NCBI GenBank assembly: GCA_902601785.1
Contig: CACKOH010000007.1
Location: forward strand, 1 to 51,267
Source: an uncultured Pelagibacteraceae bacterium
GTDB taxonomy: Bacteria; Pseudomonadota; Alphaproteobacteria; Pelagibacterales; Pelagibacteraceae
Direction: 5' to 3'
Length of the DNA stretch: 51,267 nt
Part shown: piece by piece, positions 38,240-49,924 of the stretch
How positions within the stretch are numbered: position 1 is the first letter of the stretch
How the letters are laid out: each line of letters opens with the position of its first letter
The notes under the pieces: generated by a model
Database searches by the model: none
The model's input: the letters and a program-made list of their open reading frames with translations, nothing else
What the model was told of the DNA's origin: nothing
Translations under genes and position numbers: made by a program

Positions 38240-39328
38240 TTATTTTATTAAAGTTTTCTCTATTATCTCATCTTCTAAATTTATATTTATTTTTTTATTT
38301 TCTTTATCATATAAATTTGAGACAAAATTAAACACATTTTTTGCGTATAAATTAGATGCAGAAGTTGGAAGTTTATTTAAAATATTACTTTCACCCATTA
38401 TTCTAACTCCATTTTTATCGACAATTTCATCTACTTTAGTATGTGCTGTATTTCCACCCTGGATCGCAGCTAAGTCATAAATTATAGATCCAGCTTTCAT
38501 ATTATTAATCATTTCCTCTTTAATAATTACTGGTGCTTTTTTTCCAGGTATTAAAGCAGTACAAACAACAATATCAATCTTTTTTAATGTTTCAGACAAC
38601 AATTCTTCTTGTTTCTTTTTAAAATCCTCAGATGCCTCTTTAGCATATCCGCCTTCAGTCTCAAGATTTTCTGAACCTTCAACAGTTAAAAATTTTCCTC
38701 CTAAACTTTCAACTTGTTCTTTTGAAGCCATTCTAACATCTGTTGCAAATACGATTGCTCCCATTCGTTTTGCAGTTGCAATTGCTTGAAGTCCTGCAAC
38801 TCCTGCACCAACGACTAATACTTTTGCCGCAGGAATAGTGCCTGCAGCTGTCATCATCATTGGAATTGCTTTTTCAAAATTAGAAAATGATTCAACTACC
38901 GCCTTATAACCAGCAAGGTTTGCTTGAGAAGATAATATATCCATAGATTGAGCTCTTGTTATCCTTGGAAGTAAATCAAGTGAAAAAATATTAATTTTTT
39001 TTTCAACTAAATTATCTATCTTAACTTTATTATCATACGGATTTAAAGCTCCTATAAATATTTGGTTTTCTCTCAACAAAGAATTTTTATCATCATTTAA
39101 CAAACCTAATTGAACGACAATATCTGAATCAATAATAATTTTTTTTTCATCATTTGAAGTTAATACTCCTAATTCTTTATACTCTTCGTCATTAATTCCA
39201 AGATGATTTCCATAATTTTCACTCAATGAAATTTCAAAACCAAGAGATATATATTTTTTTGCAATCTCAGGTGTAATTGCTATTCTTTTTTCAATTTTTT
39301 GATTTTCTAAAATAGAAGCAATTTTCAT
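38240..39328 (-). CDS. pntAA: NAD(P) transhydrogenase subunit alpha part 1
   Basis: Soluble NAD(H)-binding domain I of transhydrogenase, related to alanine dehydrogenase. The start at 39328 (MKIASILENQKIEKRIAITP) is chosen: the frame is open 22 codons further, but that part overlaps the small oxidase gene in another frame and is unlike the family. Motifs are RIAITPEIAKKYISLGFEI, QLGLLNDD-type region, LVVGAGVAGLQAIATAKRMG with IVFATDVR after it, GYAKEASEDFKKKQEELL, CTALIPGKKAPVII and IIYDLAAIQGGN. The length of 362 aa is normal for split PntAA. It begins 8 bp after the oxidase subunit IV stop. Confidence 0.95.
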   Translation of the reverse strand: MKIASILENQKIEKRIAITPEIAKKYISLGFEISLSENYGNHLGINDEEYKELGVLTSNDEKKIIIDSDIVVQLGLLNDDKNSLLRENQIFIGALNPYDNKVKIDNLVEKKINIFSLDLLPRITRAQSMDILSSQANLAGYKAVVESFSNFEKAIPMMMTAAGTIPAAKVLVVGAGVAGLQAIATAKRMGAIVFATDVRMASKEQVESLGGKFLTVEGSENLETEGGYAKEASEDFKKKQEELLSETLKKIDIVVCTALIPGKKAPVIIKEEMINNMKAGSIIYDLAAIQGGNTAHTKVDEIVDKNGVRIMGESNILNKLPTSASNLYAKNVFNFVSNLYDKENKKININLEDEIIEKTLIK

Positions 39329-39336
39329 GACTTTTT

Positions 39337-39447
39337 TTATAATAAGAATATTGCCATTAAAACTAAGATACCAATAACTGCAATTGTGCCCCACAAAACA
39401 AATTTTGTAAAATTGTTCCAGGTATTTTTATGGTTTTCGTTATCCAT
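39337..39447 (-). CDS. aa3-type cytochrome c oxidase subunit IV (36 aa)
   Basis: Tiny single-span membrane protein. Reading the minus strand from the ATG at 39447 gives MDNENHKNTWNNFTKFVLWG then a hydrophobic helix TIAVIGILVLMAIFLL and stop. The pattern of His-Lys-x-Thr-Trp-x-x-Phe-x-Lys-Phe followed by one helix is that of the small alphaproteobacterial oxidase subunit (COX4_pro_2 type), and the gene is usually found just upstream of pntAA, as here. At 36 aa it is below most gene-calling cutoffs. The other oxidase subunits are not in the window. The frame overlaps the discarded 5' extension of pntAA. Confidence 0.82.
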   Translation of the reverse strand: MDNENHKNTWNNFTKFVLWGTIAVIGILVLMAIFLL

Positions 39448-45674: not shown

Positions 45675-46547
45675 ATGAAAAAGAAAATTGCTCTAATTAT
45701 TTGTTATTTTTTATTCTTAATAGATAAAATTTTTTATATTTTTGGAGGAAAAAATTTCTCATTGTATTTAAAAGATCACTTAGATTTTAGATCGTACAAA
45801 AAAATCAAATTTGGGAAGCATGAATTAAAGTTTTTTATTCCCTCCAAAATATCTGAATGGAGGGTAAATACATTATTTGAAAAAGAACCCGATACAATTC
45901 AATGGATAAATAATTTCAAATGTTATAATAACGAAATAATTTTTTGGGATATTGGATCTAATATTGGAATTTTTTCTTTATATGCTGCTAAGATTCATCG
46001 GAAATGTAAAATTTACTCATTTGAACCTTCAACTAGTAACTTAAGAATATTAAGTAGAAACATTGATATTAATAATTTGAGTAAAAAAATTAAAATTATG
46101 AATTTACCATTAGGAAATATTAATAATAAATTTTTAAACTTTAAAGAAACTCATTTCCAAGAAGGAGCAGCATTAAATACATTTGGAACAGATTATAATT
46201 TTGAAGGAAAAAAATTTTTACCAGAAATAAATTATGAATTAATGGGTATAACGATTGACTATCTTCTGGAAAAAAAGATTATAGAAAAACCAAATTATAT
46301 TAAAATAGATGTAGATGGTACTGAACATTTAATTTTAGATGGTGCAAAAAAAACCCTAAAATATTCGTCACTTAAAAGCATATTAATAGAAGTAAATAAA
46401 AATTTTAAAAGTCAACACCTATCAATATTAAAAACAATGAAAAAAAATAATTTTAAAATTTCTTTGAACGAAAAATCAACAAGTTATTCATCAAATGATC
46501 AATTTTTTTATACGAATAACTATATCTTTAATAAGAAAAAAATTTAG
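45675..46547 (+). CDS. FkbM-family methyltransferase
   Basis: SAM-dependent methyltransferase of the FkbM type, often found in polysaccharide clusters where it O-methylates sugars. The SAM motif is IIFWDIGSNIGIFSLYAAKI near 94-113, followed by KIYSFEPSTSNLRILSRNI and the late YIKIDVDGTEHLILDGAKKT and SLKSILIEVNKNF, which are the FkbM pattern. The N-terminus has a hydrophobic stretch (KIALIICYFLFLIDKIFYIF) that may be a membrane anchor. 290 aa. It begins a plus-strand run of four genes up to 49155; its stop is 2 bp from the sulfotransferase start. Confidence 0.85.
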   Translation: MKKKIALIICYFLFLIDKIFYIFGGKNFSLYLKDHLDFRSYKKIKFGKHELKFFIPSKISEWRVNTLFEKEPDTIQWINNFKCYNNEIIFWDIGSNIGIFSLYAAKIHRKCKIYSFEPSTSNLRILSRNIDINNLSKKIKIMNLPLGNINNKFLNFKETHFQEGAALNTFGTDYNFEGKKFLPEINYELMGITIDYLLEKKIIEKPNYIKIDVDGTEHLILDGAKKTLKYSSLKSILIEVNKNFKSQHLSILKTMKKNNFKISLNEKSTSYSSNDQFFYTNNYIFNKKKI

Positions 46548-46549
46548 AT

Positions 46550-47605
46550 ATGAAAAATTATATTAAAAATTTTTTAAAAAAAAATTTAAGTAAAGATAAT
46601 TACAATAAAATTTTGATTGTAGTTAGCTATTTTAATAATTTTATATTTTATATTAATTTTTTATTTAAAAAGTTTAAATATAAAAATATAAAATTTAAAA
46701 AAATAAAAAGTAATTTAATAATTATTTCGCAAGTACAAAGGTCTGGGGGAACATTGTTAAGTCAATTATTTGACTCACACCCTCAAATTCATTCGTATCC
46801 AAGCGAGCTGAAATTAACAAAACCTAAATTTGATTGGACAAAAAAAATGAACTTTGTGACTTTCTACAATGATCCATTGTTAGTAAGTTCAGCAAAATAC
46901 AACAATTATAAAAAAGATGGATCAGGAATTAAAGCCCATTTAAAAAATACAAATGAATTTAAATTCGACTTTTTTCTCCAGAATTTAATCTTTAATAAAT
47001 TAAAAATTAAAAATAATCTTAAAGAAAATTTAAGTGCCTATTTCACAAGCTTTTTTAATTCATTTAAAAATTACAAAAATTTGATTGGACATAAAAAATA
47101 TATTGTCACTTTTTTACCAAGATTTGTATTGATGGACGAAAATATTAATTTATTCTTCAAATCATACACTAATGGCAAAATAATATGTATAATTCGATCT
47201 CCCACGAGTTGGTTAGCTAGTTGTATTAATCACTCGGATGAATACAAAAAAAATCCTATTAATACTTTAATGCTATGGAAAATGAATGCATTAATGACTC
47301 TTAAGGCAAAAAAAAAATTCAAAAAAAATGTTATTATTATTGATTTTAAAGATCTTATTTATCAAACAGAAAATACAATAAGAAAAATATGTAAAGAAAT
47401 TAAAATCAATTATCATGAAAATATGCGTCGACCAAGTTTTAATGGTGAACGAATTAGAAGTAACTCAAGTTTTAAAACTAGCTTTGGAAAAATTGATAAA
47501 ACAACTTTAAAGAGAGAAATAAATAAAAAGTATTATAAACAATGTGATGCCATGCTTTATGAATGTAACTATATTCGAAATGATATACTTAAATTTAAAA
47601 TCTGA
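46550..47605 (+). CDS. Sulfotransferase-like protein
   Basis: Predicted PAPS-dependent sulfotransferase. The 5'-phosphosulfate loop reads IIISQVQRSGGTLLSQLFDS (57-76) and HPQIHSYPSELK follows. The 3'-phosphate motif is GKIICIIRSPTSWLASCINH, about residues 208-227, with the conserved Arg-x-Pro and Ser. A hydrophobic stretch at about 21-40 may anchor the N-terminus, as in Golgi-type enzymes. 351 aa. It sits between an FkbM methyltransferase and two unknown proteins, so the target is probably a surface glycan or one of those proteins. PAPS supply genes are not in the window. Confidence 0.78.
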   Translation: MKNYIKNFLKKNLSKDNYNKILIVVSYFNNFIFYINFLFKKFKYKNIKFKKIKSNLIIISQVQRSGGTLLSQLFDSHPQIHSYPSELKLTKPKFDWTKKMNFVTFYNDPLLVSSAKYNNYKKDGSGIKAHLKNTNEFKFDFFLQNLIFNKLKIKNNLKENLSAYFTSFFNSFKNYKNLIGHKKYIVTFLPRFVLMDENINLFFKSYTNGKIICIIRSPTSWLASCINHSDEYKKNPINTLMLWKMNALMTLKAKKKFKKNVIIIDFKDLIYQTENTIRKICKEIKINYHENMRRPSFNGERIRSNSSFKTSFGKIDKTTLKREINKKYYKQCDAMLYECNYIRNDILKFKI

Positions 47606-47642: not shown

Positions 47643-48404
47643 ATGAATTTCTTTTTTGGATTTAAAAATAACGATTATGAAACTGAGTTGCAAATACCTA
47701 AATTTCAAAATAAAAATTCTATTAATAAGGAAATCAATTTATATAGTGCAAAAATATCAGGTAAACTCTGGGAAATAAATAAAATTAAAAATTCAGATGA
47801 AGATGATTATTTTTATTTTATAAAAGATAAATTAATTGATAACAAAATAATTTATTTTTTAGCTAAAGACTCAGAAATTAAAAAATCTAAAGAAGAAAAA
47901 TTAATTAAATATAATAAATTTACAGAAACATCACCTGCCTTTAGAGCAAATTTTATAATTAAAAAAAGAAATGGAGGGTTCTCCTCTTACCAATCTGAAT
48001 ATCCTTTCAATATGACGACAAAAAACGGTTCCATTACAAGTGGTACAGCATCGTTAACTAGTAAAAGTGCAAACAAGAATTACATTATTTTTAGAAATAT
48101 ATTTATTGAACCAATAGAAAGACCATTTAATATTTATTTTATAAACTTAAAAACTAACAAAATATTAAAGAAAGATCAGTTTTTTACCAACAGAACCAAT
48201 ATTATAGAGATAGATAATGAATTATTAAAACCTGAAATTTATTTTGTATCAAGTAATTATTTAGGTGTGCCTGTATATTTATCAGAAAAAAATGGTCATT
48301 TATCCTTCGAACATACTCATCCACCTCATGAATATTTTATGAGTCAAAATAAATTTAAAATAATTAAAAAATTTAAAAGTGAAATCAATAAAATCATTAA
48401 TTAA
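47643..48404 (+). CDS. Unknown beta-rich protein A, related to the next gene
   Basis: I do not recognise a named family. The 253-aa protein has no signal peptide and no membrane helix; the sequence alternates short hydrophobic strands, suggesting beta sandwiches. Residues 163-195 (FNIYFINLKTNKILKK, then IIEIDNELL) resemble two parts of the next protein (75-107 and 193 onward). Residues 101-123 (RANFIIKKRNGGFSSYQSEY) align with its 134-154, and the ending YLSEKNGHLSFEHTHPPHEY (212-231) has clustered histidines, possibly a metal site. It is 38 bp downstream of the sulfotransferase and overlaps the next gene by 26 bp. Confidence 0.7.
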   Translation: MNFFFGFKNNDYETELQIPKFQNKNSINKEINLYSAKISGKLWEINKIKNSDEDDYFYFIKDKLIDNKIIYFLAKDSEIKKSKEEKLIKYNKFTETSPAFRANFIIKKRNGGFSSYQSEYPFNMTTKNGSITSGTASLTSKSANKNYIIFRNIFIEPIERPFNIYFINLKTNKILKKDQFFTNRTNIIEIDNELLKPEIYFVSSNYLGVPVYLSEKNGHLSFEHTHPPHEYFMSQNKFKIIKKFKSEINKIIN

Positions 48405-49155
48405 AAAATTTACAAGAAGTGATATATCAATTATTCTTAGAAATAATTTTCGGTTTAAAGAAATCAATTTTAATTTCAAAGATTTTGAATGTCTAACAGT
48501 TAGTGATTGTTTCTTATGGAGGACAGACAATAATTTTAAAACTATTTTTAAATTTTCTGATATATTAAAAATATTCCATAATATTAATAATTCTAAAGTT
48601 GAAATTTATTTTTATACAAAAGATAACAAATTCTTAAAAAAAATACCAATCCAGAATTTAGGATTATCAAATGAAATCATTATAGATGAGAATCTGTTAG
48701 ATATAAAAGATTATGGAAGTTTTTATATTTACCACTTTACCAATGATCAAAAGATAAACGATAATATCATTGCAAACAGATGTTATATTGGCTTTTCTCA
48801 AAATAATAATTTAAGCTCCTTTGTCCATGGGAATGCATTTGCCAAATCTAAAAATATAAATTCAATGAAAAATTTCAAAAAAGATTTTGTCAATACAACT
48901 TTTTTTAAAACTAATCTTTACAGAATACAAAAATCTTTTAAGAATTACGATAAAGTAGAACTTATTTTTTCTAACCCAACTTCGAAAAAATTAAATATTT
49001 CATTTTCAGATATTAATTTTAGCCTCCAAAAAAGTGAATGTAGAAAAATAGAATTAAATAATCAAAATTTAATCGAAATCAAATCGAATTGTTTATTTTT
49101 ACGTCCAACTATTTTTTGTTATAAAAATAATTATCTAGATATTCACCATAGTTAG
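48379..49155 (+). CDS. Unknown beta-rich protein B, related to the previous gene
   Basis: Unrecognised 258-aa protein starting with GTG at 48379, inside the end of protein A. It seems to hold two copies of one beta-rich unit: residues 75-107 (EIYFYTKDNKFLKK ... EIIIDENLL) and 193-250 (ELIFSNPTSKKLNISF ... SNCLFLRPTIFCYKNNYL). A middle block RCYIGFSQNNNLSSFVHGNA (134-153) matches protein A 101-121, and it ends YLDIHHS where protein A has LSFEHTHP. No signal peptide or catalytic motif is clear. It is the last gene of the FkbM-sulfotransferase-A-B run; a convergent PIG-L gene follows after 97 bp. Confidence 0.7.
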   Translation: MKSIKSLIKKFTRSDISIILRNNFRFKEINFNFKDFECLTVSDCFLWRTDNNFKTIFKFSDILKIFHNINNSKVEIYFYTKDNKFLKKIPIQNLGLSNEIIIDENLLDIKDYGSFYIYHFTNDQKINDNIIANRCYIGFSQNNNLSSFVHGNAFAKSKNINSMKNFKKDFVNTTFFKTNLYRIQKSFKNYDKVELIFSNPTSKKLNISFSDINFSLQKSECRKIELNNQNLIEIKSNCLFLRPTIFCYKNNYLDIHHS

Positions 49156-49252: not shown

Positions 49253-49924
49253 TTATTTTGATATCAATCTGATAATCTTAAATGCTTCAGCATTTTCTTG
49301 AGAAATATTATTACCTCTATATTTAGCAAGATTTTTTATTCCTTTTTCAGATCTAGGGTGAAAATTATTTTTGATTTGGCTCTTATACTCCCTAAAAGCT
49401 GAAATTTTATTTTTTAAATCTTCATTAGTTAAAATTTCGTAATAATTTGGATGAAAACCTACTAGACCCCACTCAGTTTCTGATAATGTTTCATAACAGA
49501 AAATATTCCTTACTAAATTATCATCTATAGGTCTACATGCTACAAGGGATGCTTCATAAATACACTGATGATCTTTGTGGATATCATTTCCATAGGGTAA
49601 GAAAACTGTTTCACATTTTATTTTCTTTATAAGATTGTTAATTTTTTCTGAAATTTTATAAATAGGATATTGATCTAATTTTGGTGCTGGAAAATTAAAA
49701 AAGAAAACTTTTTTAACTCCTATTCTTTTATTAGCTTTTAAACACTCGTTTCTTATGACCTTAATTTTTGATTTGCTAAATAACTTACTGTCACCTTTTG
49801 ATGCATTAGTCATAACTGCAACATGAATATTTACTTTTAATTTTGAAAATTTACTTATTAATCCACCACACCCAAGTATCTCATCATCTGCATGGGGTGC
49901 TATAATTAAAATATTCTTAAACAT
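49253..49924 (-). CDS. PIG-L/LmbE-family deacetylase
   Basis: Zinc-dependent N-acetylglucosaminyl deacetylase-like enzyme. The metal motif is LIIAPHADDEILGCGGLISK (6-25), a PHADDE version of the common AHPDDE, and the third ligand lies in LPYGNDIHKDHQCIYEASLV (HxDH). The C-terminal part has SQIKNNFHPRSEKGIKNLA. 223 aa. It abuts the GNAT-like gene with 1 bp, both on the minus strand with the glycosyltransferase, so the three probably form one operon that deacetylates and re-acylates a sugar. The actual substrate is unknown. Confidence 0.87.
   Translation of the reverse strand: MFKNILIIAPHADDEILGCGGLISKFSKLKVNIHVAVMTNASKGDSKLFSKSKIKVIRNECLKANKRIGVKKVFFFNFPAPKLDQYPIYKISEKINNLIKKIKCETVFLPYGNDIHKDHQCIYEASLVACRPIDDNLVRNIFCYETLSETEWGLVGFHPNYYEILTNEDLKNKISAFREYKSQIKNNFHPRSEKGIKNLAKYRGNNISQENAEAFKIIRLISK

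Follow-up and report, generated by a model that had tools for sequence, protein, structure and literature searches.

What does a pair of overlapping genes, here called A and B, do in a low-G+C gene island of a SAR11-type bacterium? The pair lies in a window of 51,267 nt, the whole stretch of DNA that was analysed, behind an FkbM methyltransferase gene and a sulfotransferase gene. Other loci are cited below by L numbers. The genes involved are:

38240-39394, reverse strand: pntA-like core gene (named by eye) at the island border, a site common to some other A-B and FkbM loci
45675-46547, forward strand: FkbM O-methyltransferase, second gene upstream of A; its subfamily is found repeatedly near A-B
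46550-47605, forward strand: sulfotransferase, 37 bp upstream of A; its cluster is found there in one other locus, L031
47643-48404, forward strand: gene A, 253 aa, two predicted β-sandwich units and a C-terminal helix; homologues found
48379-49155, forward strand: gene B, 258 aa, GTG start, N-terminal helices and two predicted β-sandwich units; homologues found
48379-48404, forward strand: A/B overlap of 26 nt; the A and B frames overlap in 37 of 38 loci

The two tandem, overlapping frames of the preliminary description (253 and 258 aa) are both intact at these coordinates. Its view that they belong to no recognised family is borne out by Pfam and NCBIfam, where neither protein reaches a cut-off (nothing better than E 0.03 in NCBIfam; four divergent A-B pairs behave the same way in Pfam), and by PADLOC, which returns no match to A or B and on which a defence system is rejected. 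A PHROGs search gives two matches for B at E 0.03-0.07 and none for A, while profile searches of PDB sequences give nothing, or at best E 0.58 for the B profile with Period circadian protein. No printed description of A-B was found, a weak negative since the pair is nameless in searches. The nearest relative, in L031, has 63% identity in A and likewise a 26-nt A/B overlap. The claimed lack of a signal peptide agrees with the hydrophobicity profiles: no hydrophobic segment (Kyte-Doolittle, 19 residues, <1.6) is seen in 36 of 36 A and 35 of 36 B proteins, the lone exception being the B of L040, whose ORF-caller start lies far upstream. A cytoplasmic location of A and B is supported from sequence.

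The two genes are inherited together. Of 297 genomes in the family, 10 give a match to A, and a separate search finds B in those same 10. Further afield, 8 of 147 genomes from the order match B, and 3 of 53 from a sister family match A; a class-wide search with B finds 1 of 385, the window's own genome. A pattern-plus-tblastn scan of species genomes with A gives 35 loci, which as recorded and unchecked carry 27 labels of Pelagibacteraceae or Ca. Pelagibacter and 8 other names. The scan and the family-search loci, minus 7 duplicates, make up 38 distinct loci including the window. In all 38, B adjoins A downstream on the same strand; the single locus with no overlap of the frames is L046, which has a short B frame. 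The distance matrices of A and B correlate with r 0.88 (34 loci; 0 of 2000 Mantel shuffles as high) and with r 0.76 when four divergent loci are removed. SAR11 bacteria are among the commonest marine cell types, and A-B is a real, undescribed and tightly paired protein family in this abundant bacterial group.

Some members of this set stand apart. The A-B pair at L057:388-1912 is on a contig of 6.5 kb that has a G+C of 0.43 and is recorded (host unchecked) as Nitrospiraceae; a hexapeptide acyltransferase gene follows about 1 kb downstream. A is split at L061:1465-2236, and B at L022:10506-10990 is split and then runs into N, from sequencing error or decay. A phage link was considered and rejected, as viral contigs hold no relative of A or B and phage records no relative of A; spread by plasmid was set aside likewise, with no plasmid match for the B of L065.

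The preliminary description also proposed that A and B are built from one shared β-rich unit, present twice in B. The motifs quoted for this unit are present in both proteins at the residues given for them. Single-sequence BLASTP aligns A145-209 with B188-255 (E 0.004), and hhalign of full-length A against B gives E about 0.01 with a probability of just 3-4%. The halves A 1-124 (A-N), A 125-253 (A-C), B 36-160 (B-N) and B 161-258 (B-C) were compared as 36-row profiles against a column-shuffle null of 60 shuffles; the profiles omit two A sequences that are cut off or split (L060, L061) and two B sequences that are split or short (L022, L046). A-C matches B-N with a score of 25.9 (null 11.8 ± 2.2, maximum 18.1; 0 of 60 shuffles as high), which by hhalign's own measure corresponds to a probability of 24% and E 0.0008. 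The scores of A-C/B-C (16.7; 3 of 60 shuffles), A-N/A-C (16.8; 2 of 60) and A-N/B-N (16.4; 3 of 60) are marginal. There is no support for A-N/B-C (9.8; 47 of 60 shuffles), and the two B halves show no sequence match to each other (12.5; 16 of 60). When 105,723 pairs of 18-column windows are scanned without gaps, the best pair is A183 and B95, which is the I-I-x-I-D motif of the preliminary description. The hairpin register of A-C/B-C ranks 210th and that of A-N/B-N 10,044th in the same scan; the hairpin anchors of the four-unit register were picked by eye after alignment, and A-C/B-C alone among the registers ranks high in the unbiased scan. The A-B alignment thus has statistical support, through the score of A-C with B-N above the shuffle null. 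For a unit repeated within B the support is indirect: A-C resembles B-N well and B-C weakly, but B-N and B-C do not match each other. That A likewise holds the unit twice is suggested mainly by the predicted strand pattern.

The AlphaFold models have a pLDDT of 82.8 for A and 73.2 for B (57-61 for the four other models of B); the model of B is weak. Each protein is predicted to form two β-sandwiches, flanked by the helices listed above. DSSP assigns eight strands to the models of A-N, A-C and B-C and ten segments to B-N, or eight if two interrupted strands are joined. The four units and their endings are:

47643-48005, forward strand: unit A-N, residues 1-121, ends FRAN..FSSYQSEYP; R101, N103, S115 and Q117 in 36/36 rows
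48021-48338, forward strand: unit A-C, residues 127-232, ends GVPVY..S-x-EHTHPPH; P210, S221, E223, H224, T225 and P227 in 36/36
48493-48843, forward strand: unit B-N, residues 39-155, ends CY-x-G..VHGN; S42, D43, Y136, H150, G151 and N152 in 36/36
48871-49152, forward strand: unit B-C, residues 165-258, ends RP..D-x-x-H; Q184, N199, R242, P243 and H257 in 36/36

Residues N2, F21, N152 and N183 of A and R21, N22, F45, T55, G113, F115 and G138 of B are also invariant in 36 of 36 rows. More than 20 polar positions of the pair are identical in every row at identities to the window as low as 26%, and many of the invariant positions fall in the final two strands of each unit. D254 of B is kept in 35 of 36 rows and H226 of A in 34, being missing in L024 and L053. 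The distance from N103, P210, Y136 and P243 to the Ser or Asp of the last strand is 11 in 32, 32, 34 and 36 of 36 rows, respectively, with anchors chosen by eye.

Comparison with known folds gives faint likenesses. Foldseek finds no match at E ≤ 0.001 in the PDB (A and B models) or BFVD (A only), and no row among the best 50 listed exceeds a TM score of 0.26 when scaled to query length; one row for B is PNGase F, with a probability of 0.47 and a TM score of 0.24. In VIA-align, A-C has TM1070 in the first row (Z 7.2, 100 residues, rmsd 3.8), and B-C has the Anabaena transducer there (Z 6.2, 68 residues, rmsd 2.8); the two belong to one family (ASRT/ASRAH, PF07100), and both Z scores are below 8, less than 1 from the next rows, and may reflect just a common arrangement. 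The second rows are the Ruminococcus flavefaciens glycan-recognition chains 5aot (Z 6.7) and 5fu3 (Z 5.3), tied with others. Sections of the paper on the ASRT family (PMC2739507) propose sugar binding, describe dyads or tetrads as usual, list an Asn that ends strand 2 among the ASRAH features and give SHEshChhN as the ASRT-like signature. A-B may resemble this family in its predicted paired or fourfold β-sandwich units, in the first VIA-align rows, in an Asn directly after the second strand of A-C and B-C (A N152 and B N199, each 36/36) and in its context, as sugar binding by ASRT/ASRAH is proposed in sugar operons. In A-N the corresponding residue N23 (33/36) lies four residues past strand 2, and B-N of the window has an Asp at that place (by eye). 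The differences are that hhalign of the four units against 9 ASRT (PF07100) rows stays inside the null (87, 76, 57 and 42 of 100 shuffles as high), that SHEshChhN is absent from the A and B alignments (by eye), that strand 1 of A-C and B-C has no Trp, a residue that opens this strand in the family (W47 of B, 34/36, is in the first strands of B-N) and that A-B has two different subunits. A and B are kept out of the ASRT family because there is no profile signal and a Z score under 8 may mean a common arrangement.

Two further comparisons were made. The C-terminal domain of Wzt is a cytoplasmic β-sandwich thought to read the decorated glycan end in polysaccharide exporters. A-B, compared with it through the Pfam scan alone, would likewise be a cytoplasmic β-sandwich; unlike Wzt it has no ATPase domain and no transporter was noticed adjoining, and neither A, B nor the four divergent pairs have a Pfam match to this domain or to a carbohydrate-binding module. 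A comparison of B with the His motifs of copper monooxygenases, suggested by the PNGase F row, was dropped because residue 256 is His in just 19 of 36 rows.

The island starts beside the pntA-like gene and continues to the contig end, with G+C of 0.20-0.24 from 39 kb onward against 0.25-0.37 earlier in the window. Sections of Wilhelm 2007 (PMC2217521) describe a SAR11 island of such kind as holding mainly cell-surface genes. A pntA-like gene lies within the stretch of DNA retrieved for 8 of the 38 A-B loci, window included. FkbM and the sulfotransferase are separated by 2 bp, and the sulfotransferase and A by 37 bp; because of these gaps the four genes FkbM, sulfotransferase, A and B may form one operon. 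The preliminary description tied A-B to the sulfotransferase and, as one possible role, to glycan export. Neither tie is supported: the sulfotransferase cluster is directly upstream of A in 2 of 38 loci (the window and L031), and no transporter was noticed by eye among the 25 largest neighbour clusters. Sulfotransferase-like genes in L025 and L037 lie elsewhere than upstream of A (by eye), and membership of A-B in a general sulfotransferase system is rejected on the 2 of 38 loci. The broader proposal, a joint role in glycan biology, keeps its ground and is likely, as the proteins are paired and β-rich and the island is of the surface-glycan type. On the opposite strand, facing the end of B, the window has a PIG-L deacetylase gene (49253-49924), and genes of the same cluster are near A-B in L046 and L062.

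O-methyltransferase genes are the neighbours that recur. The count covers 497 proteins of the 38 loci, with ORFs <90 aa or >20% X omitted, families assigned from cluster representatives, and adjacent meaning same strand and within 100 bp. Of 45 adjacent same-strand slots, 18 are taken by FkbM (11) or Methyltransf_24 (7), as against 10 of 452 other positions (Fisher 3e-14, which overstates the significance because the loci share descent yet are counted as independent). In 17 of 38 loci one or the other stands next to the pair on the same strand, and in 21 neither does; 8 of the 18 cases have a stop-to-start gap of 2-6 bp. Epimerase and nucleotidyltransferase clusters, though common, are not enriched in adjacent slots. 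A tree of 21 FkbM proteins, which took in FkbM genes near A-B only, assigns 13 to a single subfamily, with a support of 87/94 that is below the starred level; each of these 13 is at most two genes away from A-B, on either strand, and a second group of 7 lies at one to five genes. FkbM distances follow neither those of A (r 0.07, n 15) nor those of B (r 0.13, n 14), with the two FkbM subfamilies mixed in this comparison, and the partner is therefore freely exchanged. The modular nature is seen in three layouts with second-group FkbM: FkbM-Mt24-A-B (L025), FkbM-A-B-Mt24 (L032) and A-B-Mt24-FkbM (L034). A-B-FkbM also occurs with no further glycan gene recognised by eye close by in L086 and L023 (L086 and L087 are records of L038 and L060 again). 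Methyltransf_24 has matches in 5 of 157 genomes, and in one of the five it adjoins A-B. A divergent A-B pair (L085:8970-10551), in no count, follows a NeuB gene in a nonulosonic-acid-like cluster with CMP-sugar, HisH/HisF and amidotransferase-like genes (by eye); the NeuB and 2-hydroxyacid dehydrogenase of L085 were scanned, and most L085 and L086 genes were named by eye.

The same FkbM subfamily has an alternative partner. Its search in 297 genomes gives matches in 35, and 30 of these loci were examined. In 3 of the 30, A-B is at most two genes away from FkbM; a 2OG-Fe(II) oxygenase-like protein of 208-221 aa adjoins FkbM in 11, all in genomes where A-B was not found (frames L088:853-1491, L089:854-1495, L093:2415-3065, L105:2352-2978 and seven other FkbM loci). 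The usual length is 208-217 aa; the L101 frame has 221 aa by the ORF caller. PF13640 matches 3 of the 5 such proteins scanned at E 1e-4 to 0.01, below the cut-off, the other two have no Pfam match, and an HDD...WH pattern is seen by eye. At two further FkbM loci the neighbour resembles phytanoyl-CoA dioxygenases, in L104 with a PhyH match at E 2.5e-12 and in L106 as judged by eye only. The oxygenase-like protein is absent from the 497 A-B neighbour proteins; its occurrence of 0 of 13 against 11 of 27 gives Fisher 0.007, tested after the pattern was seen. The A-B pairs and the FkbM-oxygenase-like pairs of SAR11-type genomes have the same FkbM subfamily and some chromosomal sites in common, but the oxygenase-like protein is unrelated to A and B: their profiles do not match its SAR11 profile (E 0.54 and 0.22), on which a sequence relation is rejected, and neither A nor B has an invariant HxD of the HxD...H triad of 2OG-Fe(II) oxygenases or a Pfam match.

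Some sites recur beside core genes; pntA, mazG, fumC, lepA and a dehydrogenase gene were all named by eye. Lone methyltransferase genes lie beside mazG/fumC-like genes in L088, L090, L093, L120 and L122, and L088 and L093 also carry the oxygenase-like gene. The lone methyltransferase gene of L118 adjoins the dehydrogenase gene that also flanks A-B-FkbM in L023. Near pntA there are lone methyltransferase genes in L096, L097, L098 and L112, in addition to the 8 A-B loci. This looks like small decoration cassettes exchanged at fixed chromosomal sites.

Our tentative choice among the readings of these data is that A-B is an undescribed two-subunit soluble cytoplasmic module, which would recognise a constant feature of the surface glycan for a capping transferase. 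Because the genes overlap, the subunits are probably made in matched amounts. We infer that A and B assemble into one complex with four β-sandwich units, which would bind its ligand rather than act as a catalyst. A putative binding site would be lined by the strictly conserved residues (His, Arg, Asn, Gln, Ser and Glu/Asp), many of which sit on the hairpin that closes each unit. This polar site is constant while the chemistry of the partner varies, which suggests a constant ligand; it may be a feature of the nascent glycan, its end or its carrier. The complex would present this ligand to the capping transferase. That role would most often fall to an O-methyltransferase, FkbM or Methyltransf_24, and in the window perhaps to FkbM plus the sulfotransferase. 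Glycan decoration cassettes are a process of known kind; the mechanism of A-B within it is what we infer. Most members of both methyltransferase groups live without A-B, and this counts against a capping partnership.

A polar site that is strictly constant would suit an enzyme no less than a binding module. That A-B is itself an enzyme is almost as probable as the recognition reading; it would have perhaps a metal or acid-base site at the A/B interface and add or expose a sugar group that is later capped by FkbM, Methyltransf_24 or the sulfotransferase. The exchange of A-B with the oxygenase-like gene leans this way, since the FkbM subfamily has the oxygenase-like neighbour in 11 of 30 loci, all in genomes where A-B was not found. 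The constancy of E223 and H224 of A and of H150 and H257 of B (36 of 36 rows), with D254 in 35 and H226 in 34, also speaks for an enzyme. Exchangeable neighbours need not share a chemistry, however, and the A and B profiles are without a match to that of the oxygenase-like protein. No catalytic motif or enzyme fold is recognised in Pfam, NCBIfam or the structure searches, and a His-x-His metal site is not strict, since H226 is lost in two loci. It is unlikely that A-B is a new class of two-subunit β-sandwich enzyme replacing a 2OG-Fe(II) oxygenase as the FkbM partner, with unrelated chemistries swapped before one capping enzyme. The varied neighbours, the disagreeing partner distances and the free mixing of genes in glycan islands would also suit an independent passenger of these hypervariable islands, with a function unrelated to its neighbours; with two methyltransferase groups enriched at gaps that are often 2-6 bp, and A-B-FkbM cassettes away from recognisable glycan genes, we consider this improbable. 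Least convincing of all, and very improbable, is that A-B senses sugars in the cytoplasm and controls glycan genes or enzymes through protein contact, as proposed for the Anabaena transducer family. The weak structural likeness of A-C and B-C to that family and its usual dyads or tetrads speak for it; the lack of profile similarity and of SHEshChhN speaks against it, as does an inspection by eye of the adjacent slots, which showed no regulatory gene.

Sections of Wilhelm 2007 (PMC2217521) present the SAR11 surface-glycan island as thought to evolve under phage pressure. Accompanied by capping enzymes that can be exchanged, a strictly paired and undescribed protein couple would add a new element to how this coat is varied. 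One FkbM subfamily that occurs with either A-B or the oxygenase-like protein asks whether A-B reads the decoration or makes it. If A-B is an enzyme that replaces the oxygenase as FkbM partner, SAR11 cells would vary their surface glycan by swapping chemistries ahead of FkbM.
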